Shown piece after piece: positions 7,090-21,075 of a stretch of DNA of 23,753 nt. Position 1 is the first letter of the stretch; the number at the start of each line of letters is the position of its first letter. A model generated the notes under the pieces. The model made no database searches. It was not told where the DNA came from and saw nothing but the letters and a program-made list of their open reading frames with translations. The stretch is from a virus, in the IMG/VR virus record IMGVR_UViG_3300028553_001402, positions 1-23,753 of that record; one strand, written 5' to 3'. The translations under genes were made by a program, and so were the position numbers.

Positions 7090-9756
7090 ATGAGTTACGT
7101 AGACGCACTTTTTGATCGTGAACACGATCGCATTCACGTGGTTGAACGCCGCAATGGCGAACGAGTATACCGCGAATATCCAGCACAGTATGTGTTCTAT
7201 TATGACGATCCGCGAGGCAAGTTTCAGTCAATCTATGGAACACCAGTAAGCAGATTTTCAAGTCGCAACAACAAGGAGTTTCGCAAAGAACTTCGCATGC
7301 ATTCGGGCAAGAAGTTGTATGAGAGTGATATCAACCCAGTATTCCGTTGTTTTGAAGACAACTACAAGGGGCATGATGCACCCCGACTACACACAGCATT
7401 TTTTGACATTGAAGTAGCGTTTGACGCTGAACGAGGATTCTCGCCCACTGATGATCCATTCAATCCCATCACAGCAATTTCGGTATATCTAGACTGGCTG
7501 GGTCAATTGATAACACTGGCAATACCTCCTCGGGGACTGAGTTGGGAAACCGCACAAGAACTAGTAAGTGAGTTTGACAACACCATTTTGTTCGAGCGTG
7601 AAGAAGACATGATCAAATCCTTTTTGGACTTGATTGACGATGCCGATGTGTTGACAGGATGGAACTCAGAAGGCTATGATATTCCCTACACTGTGAATCG
7701 AACCATACGCATTCTCAGCAAGGATGACACACGTAGATTCTGCCTGTGGGGGCAATTGCCCAAGTCAAGAACATTTGAACGCTATGGTGCTGAACAGATC
7801 ACATTTGACTTGATCGGTCGTGTGCATATGGATTACATGCAACTGTATCGCAAATACACTTACGAAGAACGTCATTCATACAGTTTGGATGCCATTGGTG
7901 AATACGAGCTTGACGAACGCAAGACTCAGTTTGAAGGAACCTTGGACCAACTGTACAATCAACACTTCAAGAAGTTTATTGAATACAACCGACAAGATAC
8001 TTTGCTGGTACACAAACTGGACAAGAAACTCAAGTTCCTGGATCTTGCCAACACCTTGGCACATGAGAACACAGTGTTGCTCCAGACCACCATGGGTGCT
8101 GTGGCAGTGACTGAACAGGCCATCATCAACGAAGCTCATGAGCGTGGTGTTGTGGTGCCCAATCGTCGAGAACGACTCACTGATGATGACACGCAAGCCG
8201 CTGGTGCTTACGTGGCATATCCCAAAAAAGGCATACACGAATACATTGGCAGTATTGACATCAACAGTCTATATCCCAGTGCAATTCGAGCACTGAACAT
8301 GGGTCCTGAAACCATTGTGGCACAACTGCGACCAATCATGACAGATCGATTGATCAAAGAAAACATGGCCCGGGGGCAGAGCTTTGCAGCCGCATGGGAA
8401 GGGTTGTTTGGCAGTCTTGAATATACTGCTGTGATGGAACAGCAACGTGGCACTGAAATCACCATTGACTGGGCCAACGGCGAGGAAACTGTACACTCGG
8501 CAGCCGAAGTCTGGAACATCATATTTGACAGCAATCGGCCCTGGATCCTCAGTGCCAATGGCACAATCTTCACTTATGAACAACAGGGTATTATTCCCGG
8601 CTTGCTCAAACGCTGGTATGCCGAACGCAAAGACATGCAGGCCAAGGCCAAGGAAGTGGAAGGGGTTGATGCCAACCAGCACGAGTACTGGGACAAACGT
8701 CAGTTGGTCAAGAAGATTAACTTGAACAGCTTGTATGGTGCCATTTTGAATCCTGGTTGCAGATTCTTTGACAAACGCATTGGTCAATCAACCACACTCA
8801 CAGGCCGCGCCATTGCCAGGCACATGGATGCACATGTAAACGAGTGTATCACTGGCAAGTATGATCACACTGGTGAAACCATTATCTATGGTGACACTGA
8901 TTCTTGTTATTTTTCAGCTTGGTCTGTGCTGAAAAAGGAAGTGGAAGAAGGTCGTATGACTTGGTCAAAAGAAATCTGCATCCAGTTATATGACAGCATT
9001 GCTGAACAAGTGAATCAGAGTTTTCCGGGCTTTATGGAACAAGCGTTTCACTGTCCAAGAGACATGGGCAGTGTGATCAAGGGTGGTAGAGAAATTGTTG
9101 CATCCAAGGGTTTGTTTATTACTAAAAAGCGTTACGCTGTGATGATCATTGACAAGGAAGGCAAACGTCAGGACAAAGACGGCAAACCCGGCAAGGTCAA
9201 AGCCATGGGCCTGGATCTCAAAAGGTCAGACACGCCCAAGGTGATTCAAGATTTTCTCAGCGATGTGTTGCATGATGTGTTGTGCGGAGTAGCACGAGAT
9301 GATGTGATTGAAAAAATCCGTGCGTTCAAATACGCATTCAAGGAACGTCCGGCTTGGGAAAAAGGTAGTCCCAAGCGTGTGAACAACTTGACCATGTACA
9401 GCAAAAAAGAAAAACAAATGGGCAAAACCAACATGCCCGGACATGTGCGAGCTGCCATCAACTGGAACAACATGCGCAAGATGAACAGCGACAACTATAG
9501 CATGCAGATTGTTGATGGTATGAAAACCATTGTGTGCAAACTAAAATCAAATGCACTGGGATGGACCAGCATTGGTTATCCCACAGACGAAATGCACTTG
9601 CCCGAGTGGTTCAAGACACTGCCGTTTGACGATGCGGAAATGGAAGCCACTGTGGTAGATGGCAAAGTTGATAACTTGTTGGGTGTGTTGGACTGGGATC
9701 TTGCCGCGGCCACCAACACTGACAACACATTTAATTTACTGTTTACGTTTGAATGA
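7090..9756 (+). CDS. 43: DNA polymerase, family B, T4 gp43 type
   Basis: This 888-residue replicative polymerase is close to T4 gp43 (898). Proofreading motifs are visible: Exo I FFDIEV (D106, E108), Exo II LTGWNSEGYDIPY (about 194-206) and Exo III YNRQDTLLV. Polymerase motifs are: A, DINSLYPSAI (390-399); B, KKINLNSLYGA (about 540-550); and C, YGDTDS (600-605). A KKRYA motif follows near 680. The last residues, TFNLLFTFE (880-888), correspond to the C-terminal clamp-binding tail of T4/RB69 polymerases. The ATG follows GGAG by 4 bases. The enzyme is complete and unsplit, with no intein or intron seen. The frame is open back to the DsbA-like stop, so readthrough could add about 25 residues, but the ribosome site favours 7090. 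Confidence 0.97.
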   Translation: MSYVDALFDREHDRIHVVERRNGERVYREYPAQYVFYYDDPRGKFQSIYGTPVSRFSSRNNKEFRKELRMHSGKKLYESDINPVFRCFEDNYKGHDAPRLHTAFFDIEVAFDAERGFSPTDDPFNPITAISVYLDWLGQLITLAIPPRGLSWETAQELVSEFDNTILFEREEDMIKSFLDLIDDADVLTGWNSEGYDIPYTVNRTIRILSKDDTRRFCLWGQLPKSRTFERYGAEQITFDLIGRVHMDYMQLYRKYTYEERHSYSLDAIGEYELDERKTQFEGTLDQLYNQHFKKFIEYNRQDTLLVHKLDKKLKFLDLANTLAHENTVLLQTTMGAVAVTEQAIINEAHERGVVVPNRRERLTDDDTQAAGAYVAYPKKGIHEYIGSIDINSLYPSAIRALNMGPETIVAQLRPIMTDRLIKENMARGQSFAAAWEGLFGSLEYTAVMEQQRGTEITIDWANGEETVHSAAEVWNIIFDSNRPWILSANGTIFTYEQQGIIPGLLKRWYAERKDMQAKAKEVEGVDANQHEYWDKRQLVKKINLNSLYGAILNPGCRFFDKRIGQSTTLTGRAIARHMDAHVNECITGKYDHTGETIIYGDTDSCYFSAWSVLKKEVEEGRMTWSKEICIQLYDSIAEQVNQSFPGFMEQAFHCPRDMGSVIKGGREIVASKGLFITKKRYAVMIIDKEGKRQDKDGKPGKVKAMGLDLKRSDTPKVIQDFLSDVLHDVLCGVARDDVIEKIRAFKYAFKERPAWEKGSPKRVNNLTMYSKKEKQMGKTNMPGHVRAAINWNNMRKMNSDNYSMQIVDGMKTIVCKLKSNALGWTSIGYPTDEMHLPEWFKTLPFDDAEMEATVVDGKVDNLLGVLDWDLAAATNTDNTFNLLFTFE

Positions 9757-10697
9757 AGCTGAAAGACATTGTACATTTTAGAAATCTACTGGCCAAATTT
9801 GAACCCAATCCCCGGTGTCATGTTGCAATTGACCATTTGAGGTCACTGATACATCAAGTGGATGGCCAAGACATTCGACTACCCAACCGAGTAGAGGATC
9901 TCATGGCGCATTTGTCCACGGTTGAGTCTGGTGTCAACAACTTCATGGAAGTGGTACGAGACATGGATCGTCAGCTTATGACTTTGGTACAGGGACTTGA
10001 GCCAGCCATGTTGGAAAACAGTCGTGAAGTGCATTGCATGCAGCCGCTGACAGACAAATCAGATCGAATACTGCAACGACAACTAACAATGGACGAAGCT
10101 GACCGTGATCGATTGGTTGGTAAAATCAACAACATTGCAGATTGGCGTATGCCAGCCATGATACTGCGTCCAGGACTGGAATCATTTGTGGATATCATGG
10201 TTGGCTGGGATCCACTGTATGTTGTGGACGAACGAAGTGAGCTGTTGGATCCGTGTGTGGCCAAGTTCAATCCAGAATACCAGCGTCGACTGCGCAAGTA
10301 CACTGTGAATGATCATGGTGCTGCACCATATCTCAAAGATTTGCCCGACAATCAATTTGGGTTGATCCTGGCCTACAACTACTTCAACTACAAACCACTT
10401 GAGGTGGTAAAGCAATACCTTTCAGAGATTGCAGTCAAACTCAGACCCGGTGGCGAAGCCATTGTCACATACAACGACTGTGATTGGGCACATGGTGTGG
10501 CCTTGGCCGAGCAGGCATTCATGAGCTATGTTCCGGGACGTTATTTGATCGAACATGCTCGGGGTATTGGGCTGATTGTGTCAACTCAACATCGTGGCAC
10601 AGGTGACGTGTGTTGGTTGGTATTAAAGAAGCCCGGCGAAATGCACAGCATTCGAGGGGGCCAAAGTTTGGCCAAAATCCTTGCACGACCTAAATAA
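9753..10697 (+). CDS. Methyltransferase-fold protein downstream of gene 43
   Basis: This 314-residue protein starts at an ATGA overlap with gene 43. The N-terminal 110 residues are helical (VESGVNNFMEVVRDMDRQLM) and unassigned. The C-terminal half looks like a class I SAM-methyltransferase fold: an acidic strand end (PLYVVDERSELL), then PDNQFGLILAYNYFNYKPLE as a motif IV-like strand and KLRPGGEAIVTYND as the usual post-motif turn. The glycine-rich motif I is poorly conserved (FVDIMVGWDP), so activity is uncertain. It sits where T4 has regA, 62 and 44 between 43 and 45. It may modify DNA or the polymerase complex, or be a catalytically dead fold. Confidence 0.6.
   Translation: MKLKDIVHFRNLLAKFEPNPRCHVAIDHLRSLIHQVDGQDIRLPNRVEDLMAHLSTVESGVNNFMEVVRDMDRQLMTLVQGLEPAMLENSREVHCMQPLTDKSDRILQRQLTMDEADRDRLVGKINNIADWRMPAMILRPGLESFVDIMVGWDPLYVVDERSELLDPCVAKFNPEYQRRLRKYTVNDHGAAPYLKDLPDNQFGLILAYNYFNYKPLEVVKQYLSEIAVKLRPGGEAIVTYNDCDWAHGVALAEQAFMSYVPGRYLIEHARGIGLIVSTQHRGTGDVCWLVLKKPGEMHSIRGGQSLAKILARPK
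10689..10696 (+). promoter_or_regulatory. Late-promoter-like CCTAAATA before the sliding clamp gene
   Basis: CCTAAATA overlaps the stop codon (TAA 10695-10697) of the methyltransferase-like gene. It leaves a leader of about 25 bases that includes a strong AAGGAG ribosome site near 10716-10721 before the clamp ATG at 10728. Confidence 0.4.
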
Positions 10698-10727: not shown

Positions 10728-11450
10728 ATGCGCGATTGTTTATTAGACCTAGTGGGTCACACTCTTGATCTTGGTTGCATTGACCTAATCAAAATTGTTG
10801 GTGATGCCAACACCACCACAGTGGTGGGCTTGGCCACGGATCTCAGCGTGGTGCTGGATGCCAAGTACCACAATCCAGTGGCAGAATTTGTGGGCACGTT
10901 TGGCATGCCCAACTTGGCCAAACTCAAGATTTTGTTGAACTTGTCTGAATACAAAGAAGATGCCAAGCTCAGTATCAAGCACCGAGCCACTGGTGAGCCC
11001 GAGGGTATTGATTTTGAAAATTCAGCCGGTGATTTCCGCAACAGTTATCGATTCATGGCCAGTGAGATTGTCACTGAAAAACTCAAGACTCCCAAGTTCA
11101 ATGGAGTGACATGGCACATTGAATTTGAACCATCAGTTGCTGCCATACAACGTCTGCGCATGCAGGCCCAGGCCAACTCTGAACAAGCCAACTTTCAGGT
11201 CAAAACTGACAGTGGTAACTTGAAGTTCTTGTTTGGCGATCACTCGACCCATGCAGGTAACTTTGTGTTTCACAGTGGTGTAAAAGGCACACTCAAACGT
11301 CCACTGGCTTGGCCGGCTGTGCAGGTCATGGGTATCCTGGCCCTGAGTGGCAACAAGATCATGCGCATCAGTGATGACGGTGCCATGCAAATCACAGTGG
11401 ATTCAGGCATTGCTGTTTACACATACACATTGCCGGCACACAGCAAGTAA
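10728..11450 (+). CDS. 45: Sliding clamp, DNA polymerase processivity subunit (gp45-like)
   Basis: This 240-residue protein fits gp45-like clamps (T4 gp45 is 228). It has the alternating strand pattern of a clamp, with DLIKIVGDANTTTVVGLATD near the N-terminus, an HNPVAEFVGTFGM segment, and NSYRFM in the middle. The C-terminus (NKIMRISDDGAMQITVDSGI, then YTYTLPA) resembles the end of clamp proteins in aquatic T4-like phages. Trimers of gp45 encircle DNA, tether gp43 and also activate late transcription in T4. It has its own ribosome site and a late-like box, and the next gene begins 6 bases after its stop. Clamp loader genes 44 and 62 are not in the window. Confidence 0.75.
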   Translation: MRDCLLDLVGHTLDLGCIDLIKIVGDANTTTVVGLATDLSVVLDAKYHNPVAEFVGTFGMPNLAKLKILLNLSEYKEDAKLSIKHRATGEPEGIDFENSAGDFRNSYRFMASEIVTEKLKTPKFNGVTWHIEFEPSVAAIQRLRMQAQANSEQANFQVKTDSGNLKFLFGDHSTHAGNFVFHSGVKGTLKRPLAWPAVQVMGILALSGNKIMRISDDGAMQITVDSGIAVYTYTLPAHSK

Positions 11451-11456
11451 TCACAC

Positions 11457-13001
11457 ATGACAACAGAGCAACATGATTTAACTGCACGGCAACATGACTA
11501 TGCTGTTTTTTTGCCGGCCATCAGCAGTTTTTACAGCACCTATATTGGGCGTCAACGATTTGAACCCTATGTAGAAGCTGCTCGCATGCCCAAGGGCATG
11601 CCTGACATGGAGAGCATGAATTTTCTCAATGCACAGCAAGGCCTGTTTCCCTATCGCTGGGCACTGTACTCAGCTGGGCATGCTGATCTAGATCTCACCA
11701 AGCACAATCCCAAAGAGGACATGTTGCGCAGTCGCGACCCCAATACCATTTTGTTGTGCGACTCGGGTGGTTTCCAAATTGCCAAGGGTGTGTGGGAAGG
11801 TGACTGGAAAGCCAATTCAGGTTGTCCCCGGGCTCAGAAAAAACGAGAAGCAGTGCTGAAATGGCAAGACGGCTTGGCCACATATGGCTTGACCTTGGAT
11901 ATTCCCACATGGACCAGCAAGTGGCCGGGATCAAGTGAAAAAACTGGCATCCGTAACTATCAAGATGCCGTGGACGCCACAATCTACAACAACAATTATT
12001 TTATTGCTCATCGTCGAGGCATAGACAACGGTGGTGCTCGATTGCTCAATGTGTTGCAAGGTGCTAATCATGTGGAAGCTGACTCATGGTACGACACCAT
12101 GAAAAAGTATTCTGATCCTGCACAGTACCCTGGACGCCACTTCAATGGTTGGGGCATGGGTGGACAGAACATGTGTGATGTACATCTTGTGTTGCGCAGA
12201 ATAGTCACCCTCATGCGTGACCGGTTGCTGGAACCTGACGTACATGACTGGATGCACTTCTTGGGCACCAGCAAACTGGAGTGGGCGTGTTTGCTCACAG
12301 ACATTCAACGTGCTGTGCGCAAGTATCACAATCCACAATTCACAATCTCGTTTGACTGTGCAAGTCCTTTCCTGGCCACAGCAAATGGTCAACTGTATTA
12401 TCAAAGCAGCTATCCCAATCGTGACAAATGGACCTATCGCATGGCGCCCACTGCCGACGACAAAAAGTACAAGACAGACCAACGCAGTTTCCGAGATGCA
12501 GTGATTCAAGATGGCATTCACGCCGAGTTTGATGACTCTCCAATTTCGGCCAGACTCAAGGTTTCTGATGTGTGTGTTTACGGACCCGGAGATCTCAACA
12601 AGATTGGCAAAGAAGGCAAAACATCATGGGACAGTTTCTCATATGCATTGCTCATGGGTCACAATGTGTGGCAGCACATCAATGCTGTGCAAACTGCCAA
12701 CGAGCAATATGATCTGGGCAGCAAGCCTGGCATGTTGGCCGGGCGTACCACTCCTGATCATGACTTCCGTGCCATAGTGGATGACATCTTTGGCCAACCT
12801 GACTATGCCAGCAGAATGGACCGTATCACACACTATGAAAAAGTCCTGGACTTGATCATTGGCACACGCGGATTTACCGGCAAGAAACTGGTGTCGGCTA
12901 GACCCATGTTTGAAGCATTGTTTACATTTGATGAAGCTGTGTCCATGGATCCCGATGAATTAGATACCGATAAACTAGATGCACTAGAGGATAGCATATG
13001 A
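11457..13001 (+). CDS. dpdA: DpdA-like guanine transglycosylase (7-deazaguanine insertion into DNA)
   Basis: This 514-residue protein resembles the tRNA-guanine transglycosylase barrel, and phage members of that superfamily (DpdA) swap guanine in DNA for a 7-deazaguanine. Visible motifs: LLCDSGGFQIAKG with D102 as the base-binding/general acid residue, GLTLDIP (D148), NVLQGA (198-203), GWGMGGQ (231-237), HFLGTSK (268-274, by family comparison) and SFDCASP with D300 as the likely nucleophile. The CxCxxC zinc site of bacterial tRNA enzymes is not seen, supporting a DNA-acting type. Residues 484-491 (MFEALFTF) match the C-terminal tail of this phage's gp43 and may bind the sliding clamp. It follows the clamp gene by 6 bases and overlaps the next gene as ATGA. 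Which deazaguanine it inserts cannot be read from the sequence. Confidence 0.8.
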   Translation: MTTEQHDLTARQHDYAVFLPAISSFYSTYIGRQRFEPYVEAARMPKGMPDMESMNFLNAQQGLFPYRWALYSAGHADLDLTKHNPKEDMLRSRDPNTILLCDSGGFQIAKGVWEGDWKANSGCPRAQKKREAVLKWQDGLATYGLTLDIPTWTSKWPGSSEKTGIRNYQDAVDATIYNNNYFIAHRRGIDNGGARLLNVLQGANHVEADSWYDTMKKYSDPAQYPGRHFNGWGMGGQNMCDVHLVLRRIVTLMRDRLLEPDVHDWMHFLGTSKLEWACLLTDIQRAVRKYHNPQFTISFDCASPFLATANGQLYYQSSYPNRDKWTYRMAPTADDKKYKTDQRSFRDAVIQDGIHAEFDDSPISARLKVSDVCVYGPGDLNKIGKEGKTSWDSFSYALLMGHNVWQHINAVQTANEQYDLGSKPGMLAGRTTPDHDFRAIVDDIFGQPDYASRMDRITHYEKVLDLIIGTRGFTGKKLVSARPMFEALFTFDEAVSMDPDELDTDKLDALEDSI

Positions 13002-18831: not shown

Positions 18832-18892
18832 AACATGCTACACAATGGTAGCAAACTTCAAAATTAACATCCGTGTAAGGAAGGATATCAAA

Positions 18893-19576
18893 ATGAGCTA
18901 TAACAAAACCAAATGTGACCCCGAGTTGGGTCAACGAGTACACGAGCACCTGGTTGCTTGTGGTGTAGAAACTCCAACGTTTCAGCATTCAGTTGATCGC
19001 AAAGATAAAATTGAACTGATCGAGCGAGATTTTAAACACATCATGGAAGTGCTGGGCCTGGACCTTGAAGATGACAGCCTGCGTGACACACCCAAACGTG
19101 TGGCCAAGATGTACGTGAACGAAATCTTCTGGGGACTGGACTACGAGGCATTTCCCAAGTGTACCACAGTGGACAACAAAATGAAGTATGATGAAATGGT
19201 TGTGGAACGCAATGTTTCAGTGCAAAGCAACTGCGAGCATCACTTTGTTGTCATAGACGGCTTGGCCACTGTGGGCTATATTCCCAAACAAAAAGTTCTG
19301 GGTCTCAGCAAGATCAATCGAGTTGTAGAGTACTTCTCCAAGCGACCACAGATTCAAGAACGACTGACTGAACAAGTGTATCATGCCTTGCAATACATCT
19401 TGGAAACTAATGACATTGGCGTGGTAATCAATGCCCAGCACTACTGTGTGAAAAGTCGCGGTGTTGAAGACACTGGCTCCAGCACTGTGACCAGTCGACT
19501 GGGCGGTGTGTTTCGCAGTGACCCATCAGTGCGCACTGAGTTCATGAACATTGTCAATGCTTGTACCAGAGGTTAA
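18893..19576 (+). CDS. folE: GTP cyclohydrolase I
   Basis: The 227-residue enzyme turns GTP into dihydroneopterin triphosphate, the first step to folate and to 7-deazaguanines. The start at 18893 follows AAGGAAGGA; an in-frame ATG at 18845 has no ribosome site. Zinc ligands are C114 and H117 in NCEHH, and C185 in HYCVKSRG; H116 is catalytic. SLRDTPKRVAKMYVNE (62-77) and STVTSRLGGVF (197-207) are family signatures. The length is normal and no residue is missing. It lies with the HIT gene and upstream of two queD genes, so here it most likely feeds the deazaguanine pathway. QueE and QueC, which complete preQ0, are not in the window. Confidence 0.96.
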   Translation: MSYNKTKCDPELGQRVHEHLVACGVETPTFQHSVDRKDKIELIERDFKHIMEVLGLDLEDDSLRDTPKRVAKMYVNEIFWGLDYEAFPKCTTVDNKMKYDEMVVERNVSVQSNCEHHFVVIDGLATVGYIPKQKVLGLSKINRVVEYFSKRPQIQERLTEQVYHALQYILETNDIGVVINAQHYCVKSRGVEDTGSSTVTSRLGGVFRSDPSVRTEFMNIVNACTRG

Positions 19577-20056: not shown

Positions 20057-20539
20057 ATGGCAAAATATTACTCAACAAAGCACTACGGACACAACATTGG
20101 TTTGTCGGCGGTATTCCGTCAACCCAATGCAGATCATTCACATTGTCATTTGTTGCATGGTTACAGTCTAGCGTTTACATTCACATTTGGCTGCGACACA
20201 TTAGACAACAAGAACTGGGCAGTGGACTTTGGCGGACTCAAACCACTCAAGGCTTGGTTGGAAGATCACTTTGATCACAAGTTGGCCTTGGATCAAGCTG
20301 ATCCACACTTGGCCAAATTCCAAGAACTAGAAGCATTGGATCTAGCTGAGATTCGTATCTTTGATGGTGTGGGTGCAGAGAAATTTGCTGAGCATGCTTT
20401 TAACTTTGCTGATCAATTGATTCGTGAAAAGACCAACGATCGTTGCTATTGTGTCCGAGTTGAGTGCGCCGAACACGGTGCCAACAGCGCCATCTATGAA
20501 GGTAATAGCGATTGGAACGAGGAGGACTGGTTGGCATGA
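20057..20539 (+). CDS. queD: QueD-like 6-carboxytetrahydropterin synthase, copy 1
   Basis: The 160-residue protein fits the QueD family, which makes 6-carboxytetrahydropterin from dihydroneopterin triphosphate in 7-deazaguanine synthesis. HSHCHLLHGYSLAF has the catalytic Cys (C30) and H34; HGY replaces the usual HGH, so one standard zinc His is Tyr. H27 or H29 may take over as a ligand. WAVDFGGLKPLKAWL matches the usual DF-LK helix, and FDHKLAL (D73, H74) is the catalytic Asp-His. VRVECAEHGANSAIYE is the terminal strand. A strong AGGAGA ribosome site precedes it. The stop overlaps the second copy as ATGA. Confidence 0.88.
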   Translation: MAKYYSTKHYGHNIGLSAVFRQPNADHSHCHLLHGYSLAFTFTFGCDTLDNKNWAVDFGGLKPLKAWLEDHFDHKLALDQADPHLAKFQELEALDLAEIRIFDGVGAEKFAEHAFNFADQLIREKTNDRCYCVRVECAEHGANSAIYEGNSDWNEEDWLA

Positions 20540-21075
20540 AGTACACCAGTACAAAAACGTATGGTATTGACCAAGAATTTTCCTGTGTGTTCAGGCAGTG
20601 GCGTAGTCGCCACAGCCACCGCAGTCTTCTTCATGGTTATTCCATGGGCTTTCGTTTGATTTTTGAGTCTGACTCCCTGGACGCCTGCAACTGGGTCATA
20701 GATTCAGATGGGCTAAAGGCATTCCATGACTGGGCCAAATACACATTTGACCACACTCTACTGATAGCACGTGATGATCCACATGTGGAACTGTTCAAGA
20801 GCCTGAGTGAGCTTGGGCCACAGGGTCGTGGCGGTGTGTGCGATCTACGCATACTTGAAGATGGTGTGGGCTGTGAAAAATTTGCCAAATTGGCATATGA
20901 AGAAATGAGTCGTATACTGCGTAAATTTCAAGATGACGAGCACTATGAGTTTACAGACCATCGAACTGGCAAGGTTCACGGCTACAGCATTGGTTATCTC
21001 ATGAATGAACAAGTGCGGTTGCGATCAGTTGAAGTGTTTGAGCATGCTGGAAGCAGTGCAACATACGAGGAGTAA
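20536..21075 (+). CDS. QueD-like paralogue, copy 2, lacking the catalytic cysteine
   Basis: The 179-residue protein is homologous to the gene before it: both share the VFRQ...HSH...LLHGYS block, the NWV-D-LK helix, the TFDHTLL Asp-His segment and a terminal VEVFEHAGSSATYE. In the active-site block, copy 1 has HSHCHLLHGY but copy 2 has HSHRSLLHGY, so the catalytic Cys is Arg (R29). It also has extra insertions (RGGVCDLRILEDGVGCEKF and a loop near 140). It is unlikely to do the standard QueD reaction. It may be a partner subunit of copy 1 or have another activity on a pterin or deazaguanine. The GGAGGA ribosome site sits at the end of copy 1. Confidence 0.82.
   Translation: MKYTSTKTYGIDQEFSCVFRQWRSRHSHRSLLHGYSMGFRLIFESDSLDACNWVIDSDGLKAFHDWAKYTFDHTLLIARDDPHVELFKSLSELGPQGRGGVCDLRILEDGVGCEKFAKLAYEEMSRILRKFQDDEHYEFTDHRTGKVHGYSIGYLMNEQVRLRSVEVFEHAGSSATYEE

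Follow-up and report, generated by a model that had tools for sequence, protein, structure and literature searches.

The clamp-binding motifs of phage T4 are short hydrophobic and acidic segments carried on a linker, with the core L/F-x-x-L/M-F/Y, as given in the accessible portions of two reports (PMC2988020, PMC7892883). By the accessible portion of the former, gp43, gp55 and gp33 can also exchange their motifs, one of which functions internally in a fusion. T4 gp43 ends in ASLDFLFG, and T4 gp55 in SLDFLYEAND. In the available text of PMC13216743, T4 alpha-glucosyltransferase (alpha-GT) pulls down gp45 (repeating Sommer 2004, as cited there), beta-GT did not bind gp45, and the modification share of alpha-GT stems mostly from stronger upstream regulatory sequences and not from clamp binding. 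A physical link between a clamp and DNA modification thus already had a precedent, of which the author of the preliminary description of the present locus was not aware. By analogy, the alpha-GT result is also a caution, and would count against clamp binding as what sets modification levels.

The closest described enzymes are DpdA and DpdA2 of Hutinet et al. 2019 (PMC6884629), which the available text presents as TGT-like proteins that insert 7-deazaguanines into phage DNA. DpdA2 was described there from the T4-like phage nt-1, in which, by the same partial source, only about 0.1% of G is dPreQ0. The word clamp is absent from the main text of that paper, and a search of open-access titles and abstract starts found no report of a clamp motif in DpdA.

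Gene content of the locus and the tail of DpdA

The window, which is the whole stretch of DNA analysed here, comprises 23,753 bases of an IMG/VR virus record and, judged by its gene content, comes from an uncultivated phage. Four genes follow one another on the + strand. The family-B DNA polymerase (gp43 type, 888 aa, 7090..9756) matched PF00136 (E 2.4e-34) and phrog_262 (E 1e-193), and is followed by a 314-aa gene (9753-10697) with a weak methyltransferase match below the cut-off. The PCNA/gp45-type sliding clamp (240 aa, 10728..11450) matched phrog_12062 (unknown function) and had no Pfam or NCBIfam match, and the 514-aa DpdA-like protein (11457..13001) had no match in profile searches against Pfam, PHROG and NCBIfam; for both proteins, the assignment comes from the predicted fold. 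Further along the + strand are a GTP cyclohydrolase I (FolE, 18845..19576, PF01227, E 1e-61) and two QueD-like (PTPS) proteins (20057..20539 and 20536..21075, PF01242, E 6e-14 and 1.2e-11), a set that is consistent with a 7-deazaguanine pathway.

The clamp and DpdA were modelled with AlphaFold2 as a single chain, a clamp-G-S-H-DpdA fusion, and the folds were compared by VIA-align. Residues 1-243 of the fusion adopt a PCNA fold resembling a two-domain clamp protomer (8dr4_G, Z 18.4, rmsd 3.4, 224 aligned), and most of the remainder adopts the tRNA-guanine transglycosylase (TGT) fold (6h62_B, Z 18.1, rmsd 5.4, 299 aligned; also 2z1w, Z 18.1, rmsd 4.5, 301 aligned). As a putative sliding clamp, the former would form a ring on DNA and confer processivity. 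As a putative DNA transglycosylase with a TGT fold, a DSGGFQ sequence and pathway genes nearby, DpdA would exchange bases in DNA. DSGGFQ (D102-Q107), which we take to be an active-site stretch, is invariant in 11 aligned sequences.

The preliminary description had pointed to a likeness between an octapeptide of DpdA and the polymerase tail, and the reported peptides were all found in place. MFEALFTF, encoded by ATGTTTGAAGCATTGTTTACATTT (12906..12929, + strand), occupies DpdA residues 484-491 of the 514-aa ORF at 11457-13001, and its core F485-x-x-L488-F489 is the proposed sliding clamp-binding motif. The polymerase ORF (7090-9756) ends in TFNLLFTFE, with TFNLLFTF at 9727..9750 before the final E and the stop codon, and the RB69 gp43 record ends in KKASLFDMFDF, which includes the cited tail LFDMFDF. 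However, the terminal F-x-F, said to be common to all three, fares less well: just 12 of 47 homologues have F at position 491, and the T4 gp43 end differs. What the homologues conserve is F-x-x-L-F rather than the F-x-F at the end. The start of dpdA 6 bases past the clamp gene is correct for the window (stop 11450, start 11457) but applies to only part of the family; among the best-scoring relatives, the DpdA start, taken from the longest ORF, lies at most 20 bases from the clamp stop or overlaps it in 59 of 129 distinct DpdAs. Downstream of the motif, the DpdA tail has another conserved block in the alignment (L502 D503, L507, L510 E511; 12960..12989, + strand), and this block (L-D, then L..LE) is partly retained in phage PA5oct.

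In a related 342-kb contig, whose ORFs (some of them spurious) add up to 109,850 residues, the pattern F..[LMF]F was counted 36 times, approximately once per 3,050 residues, and at this rate a 514-aa protein would contain it by chance in about 15% of cases. The peptide match in one phage is therefore weak evidence and could be due to chance. The motif codons differ between dpdA and the polymerase gene of the window, indicating that the segment is not a simple copied stretch.

Conservation, relocation and matching of the motif

DpdA relatives were collected in two scans, which covered the best 80 of 492 and the best 80 of at least 576 relatives, and the following counts apply to these best-scoring sequences. 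From 171 loci with a DpdA match, two with an open end (L159, L170) and three short ones (L108, L185, L191) were dropped, and 30 identical copies were merged, leaving 136 distinct proteins. In the homologues below 95% identity, F485 is kept in 46/47, L488 in 44/47 and F489 in 47/47, and the flanks are variable. All of the 129 distinct DpdAs that have a family-B polymerase in their locus carry the motif when three classes are counted: 116 have F..[LF]F, 8 have conservative variants (Y instead of the first F in six), and 5 have an LF-type motif at the extreme C-terminus, the variant and moved classes having been defined after the data were seen. Clamp and polymerase are present in the same set of loci, so that loss of the motif despite a similar clamp, which would have spoken against the proposal, was not seen among these 129. 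None of the seven DpdAs without a polymerase in their locus, namely those of phage Phosso, its relative L104 and five bacterial contigs (L186-L190), has the motif.

Several comparisons place this conservation above background. The strict core was present in 30 of 36 DpdAs at 80% identity, versus a mean of 0.9 and a maximum of 5 of 36 in 500 shuffles of the tails. A set of 1485 other + strand ORFs of at least 150 aa, some of which are not genes, has 12 members with the strict core in the final 75 residues and no member with a polymerase-type tail. Of 129 polymerases with a readable tail, 126 have F..[LMF]F.[FWY] within the last 14 residues. At the level of sequence, the conservation of the DpdA peptide across relatives is strong evidence for the putative motif.

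In the AlphaFold2 fusion, the motif corresponds to residues 727-734. The blocks covering residues 711-740 have pLDDT values of 54, 52 and 46, and the motif lies in the latter two, outside the confident core. The segment is accordingly modelled as part of a low-confidence, flexible tail and not as buried within DpdA. The model did not place the DpdA tail on the clamp; a control consisting of the polymerase tail, the read-through linker and the clamp of locus L014 did not place the polymerase tail either, with residues 1-40 under pLDDT 50.

Four DpdAs lack the inner motif and instead have a similar segment at the very end: DNPLFEF in L121, NSDIFEV in L131, NPDLFEV in L132 and NPELFGE in L176. 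In a core tree built without the tail, L121, L131 with L132, and L176 fall in three separate places (that of L176 with low support), and their closest relatives have the inner motif. A docking peptide can relocate in this way, and part of a fold would hardly do so. The relocated motif thus speaks against the segment being a piece of the DpdA fold.

The DpdA segment also resembles the tail of the polymerase of the same phage. Vibrio phage 2.275 has NNNDLFGW at the end of DpdA and NNTDLFDW at the end of the polymerase, and here too the motif codons differ between the two genes. In PA5oct (DpdA 35% identical), SFNSLFDV is paired with HFDSLFGW; a homing endonuclease gene divides the polymerase of this phage (L100:5605-10831) into two ORFs. 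The two proteins of L165 share FF (DpdA LFDTFFEE, polymerase TFSLFFEL), and L184 has VFSDLFDI and MFNDLFDW, respectively. Phosso is an exception that counts against clamp binding: its polymerase ends in TFNDLFTF, and its DpdA ends in VEGLF without the motif. In Phosso, dpdA is a neighbour of genes for primase and helicase and is distant from the clamp gene. The related DpdA of L104, which also lacks the motif, likewise counts against clamp binding.

The matching was evaluated by permutation in 10 chosen lineages with the motif in both proteins (K571 stood for phi-Grn1; see below for the T4-like phages). The set left out CZ01, pf16 and Phosso, whose DpdAs have no motif, as well as L121, L131, L132 and L176, so that the tests address matching where the motif exists and not its presence. 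True DpdA-polymerase pairs outscored permuted pairs with p of about 1e-5, and when permutation was confined within the two DpdA families, the true score was reached by 2 of 14,400 arrangements, one of which is the true pairing; these values are rough because of related lineages and hand-chosen peptides. In 8 of the 10 lineages, no polymerase tail matched the DpdA segment better than that of the own polymerase.

DpdA2 of T4-like phages and other proteins with similar tails

The second family is independent in sequence. With the window DpdA as query, 13 records of the phage collection matched at E 1e-5, with no DpdA2 and no phage of the 9g or nt-1 groups among them. In viral_contigs, the DpdAs of PA5oct and Vibrio phage 2.275 gave no match and that of Phosso gave two loci. 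DpdA2 was scanned in the best 80 of 380 IMG/VR relatives, from which L262 (open) and identical copies were dropped to leave 55 distinct complete proteins. Of these, 51 end in L/I-x-x-L/F/M-F, with D or E after the first motif position in 48 of the 51. The four remaining ends are TLELF (two), NILDL (whose own polymerase has NTLDF) and SLELEF. The same end pattern occurs in 7 of 943 other + strand ORFs of the DpdA2 loci, and five of the seven are one protein. The pattern is also present on a baseplate hub protein of L215, a reminder of chance. A 298-aa protein without a family match (L282:4227-5120) ends in NTLESLFA, and ORFs with the same length and ends are found in L283, L285, L288 and L289.

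Comparison of DpdA2 with the own polymerase gave SLEELFG and SLESLFG in X1, TLDELFE and SLDDLFE in ACP17, SLDDLFG and SLEDLFGW in Moby, and SLDSFFD and TLDDFFS in BUCT-ZZ01. In phi-Grn1 and K571, the DpdA2 segments are internal (DLSSFFGG and DLTAFFGG), and both polymerases end in TLESFFG. Altogether, six of the eight named phages show a match between DpdA2 and polymerase; in the other two, CZ01 and pf16, DpdA2 is without the segment and the polymerases end in TLESFFG and SLEDFFS, which counts against clamp binding. Polymerase tails were readable in only four IMG/VR DpdA2 loci (L215, L216, L228 and L267), and L228 has TLENFFE in DpdA2 and SLEDFFG in the polymerase. In seven T4-like records, kilobases separate the genes for DpdA2 and the polymerase. 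With T4 gp45 as query, a homologue was found in 7/7 T4-like DpdA2 records searched (a set without K571), and the Pfam gp45 family (PF02916) was detected in 3/7 T4-like records, below the cut-off only. DpdA2 phages differ in modification level. nt-1 is low, which is a point against the proposal, and phage 6E351A has 15% dG modification according to the available text of PMC12028318, where it is treated together with Schizotequatrovirus phages, whose core genome includes the pathway.

Other proteins of the window's group were compared as well. The loose tail pattern ends 57 ORFs in 172 loci, 15 of them on the + strand; the longer + strand ones are a few unrelated proteins found in one or two loci each, together with a 97-aa ORF in three. 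In the 342-kb relative, only the polymerase and DpdA stood out for their tails, and across these two sets no other replication protein with the tail was seen, which counts against clamp binding. Ligase (PF01068) is present in 4 of 5 relatives and lacked a polymerase-like tail in the one relative that was read, and a Sigma70_r2 search of five relatives had no match over the cut-off. Some individual ORFs are worth recording. In Vibrio phage 2.275, the gene after DpdA (L101:9723-10835), weakly amidoligase-like, begins with MFNELFDF as an N-terminal segment. Downstream of one DpdA, an HNH endonuclease-like protein of 124 aa (L132:12681-13052) ends in TTFNSIFNFQ, like a polymerase tail, and a 185-aa protein without a family match (L182:3640-4194) ends in STFTKLFTLE. 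L087 (G001, about 100-105 kb) gives the impression of ORFs resembling a bacterial transporter operon within a phage contig, possibly host genes or a chimeric assembly.

The 9g-type DpdAs of Seurat, Vid5 and HTN2 (L295, L297 and L298) end in MELF, QELF and QELF, respectively, and a gene for a beta-type clamp or processivity factor is found within one to three small genes of each; the Seurat DpdA was named by its likeness to the annotated DpdA of HTN2. A rule of matching with the own polymerase tail is unsupported in this type, as the polymerase tails of Seurat and HTN2 do not match the ends of their DpdAs and the DpdA of PenguinLover67 has no such LF end.

Proposed role of the tail and comparison with known systems

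We consider it highly probable that the F-x-x-L-F tail of DpdA is a clamp-binding motif, like the tail of the phage's own polymerase, and tethers base exchange to loaded clamps. The docking site would be the hydrophobic pocket of the PCNA/gp45-type clamp, and the docked tail would hold the transglycosylase on clamps at newly made DNA. The replacement of guanines by 7-deazaguanine bases may then take place shortly behind the fork, or at any site where loaded clamps persist, with DpdA acting as a putative clamp client that is attached through a peptide of the polymerase type. The phage would probably modify its DNA where copying occurs. Recruitment of DpdA by the clamp, as first suggested for this locus, gains from conservation in homologues, the flexible tail, co-variation with the polymerase and the independent DpdA2 family; binding to the clamp, the pocket as its site and the coupling of modification to replication are what we infer from these sequence patterns.

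The tail segment might instead be conserved as part of the DpdA fold or of a dimer interface, its likeness to the polymerase tail being coincidental. The second conserved block nearby allows that the tail is structural, and the pattern F..[LMF]F is not rare. This explanation is nevertheless improbable, because the segment is flexible in the model, took up a C-terminal position in three distinct parts of the tree, tracks the own polymerase tail, and has T4-type counterparts at the ends of DpdA2. More improbable still is an origin of the dpdA motif from the polymerase gene by gene conversion or recombination, with no selection for function. The two genes are neighbours with near-identical octamers, and the tails of L131, L132 and L176 are alike though their cores are apart in the tree. 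However, the differing codons in the window and Vibrio phage 2.275, the retention of the motif in every one of the 129 best-scoring relatives with a polymerase, and the distance between the DpdA2 and polymerase genes in the T4-like records all argue against such copying.

A further explanation refines clamp docking and does not exclude it: the motif may bind the clamp for a purpose other than fork-coupled exchange, such as general DNA loading, restraint from tRNA, or post-replication use on leftover clamps. We regard this as less likely than not. T4 gp45 also serves late transcription, as stated in the accessible portions of PMC2988020 and PMC7892883, and the low modification of nt-1 and the alpha-GT result, both taken from partial sources, fit a modest role in modification levels.

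If DpdA does ride on the clamp, this would account for the way in which a base-exchange enzyme selects phage DNA over host DNA and tRNA, as well as for the time of its action. The co-varying tails suggest gain or retention of this link in two or more DpdA families and in several clamp lineages. A tail the same as that of the own polymerase would also offer a simple rule for recognizing other clamp clients in uncultured phages. The two DpdA families, the candidate segment of T4 alpha-GT and the amidoligase-like gene of Vibrio phage 2.275 are the basis of a broader and tentative proposal, to which we give slightly less than an even chance: that docking on gp45/PCNA-type clamps is general for base-rewriting phage enzymes, with the pathway assembled on the clamp and the DNA marked during its synthesis, ahead of any host restriction.

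The closest precedents are in T4. As far as the available T4 sources go, the motifs of gp43, gp55, gp33 and DNA ligase resemble the situation in the window, in that the same segment occurs in the polymerase and in other clients. In contrast to them, the client in the window is a DNA base transglycosylase, and its core lies 25 residues before the C-terminus. The segment is terminal in most DpdA2 proteins, unlike in the window DpdA, and the DpdA2 of nt-1 is a member of this second family, its relatives having the T4-type tail. T4 alpha-GT is similar to DpdA as a phage DNA-modifying enzyme with a link, predicted in the case of DpdA, to the phage clamp, whereas it is an unrelated enzyme that glucosylates hmC. 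The alpha-GT sequence (L193:3625-4827) contains FYQMFDF at residues 211-217 as a candidate segment, the beta-GT sequence has no match to the motif pattern, and T4 Dam also has a match, FVDLF. Among eukaryotes, the methyltransferase DNMT1 is brought to the fork by PCNA; the likeness to DpdA is in the combination of a DNA-modifying enzyme and a clamp at the fork, and the difference is that DNMT1 is a eukaryotic methyltransferase. Clamp clients, including one phage DNA-modifying enzyme, are already known from the sources available; what is new here is that DpdA, in two families, is a predicted clamp client with a tail that co-varies with that of its own polymerase.
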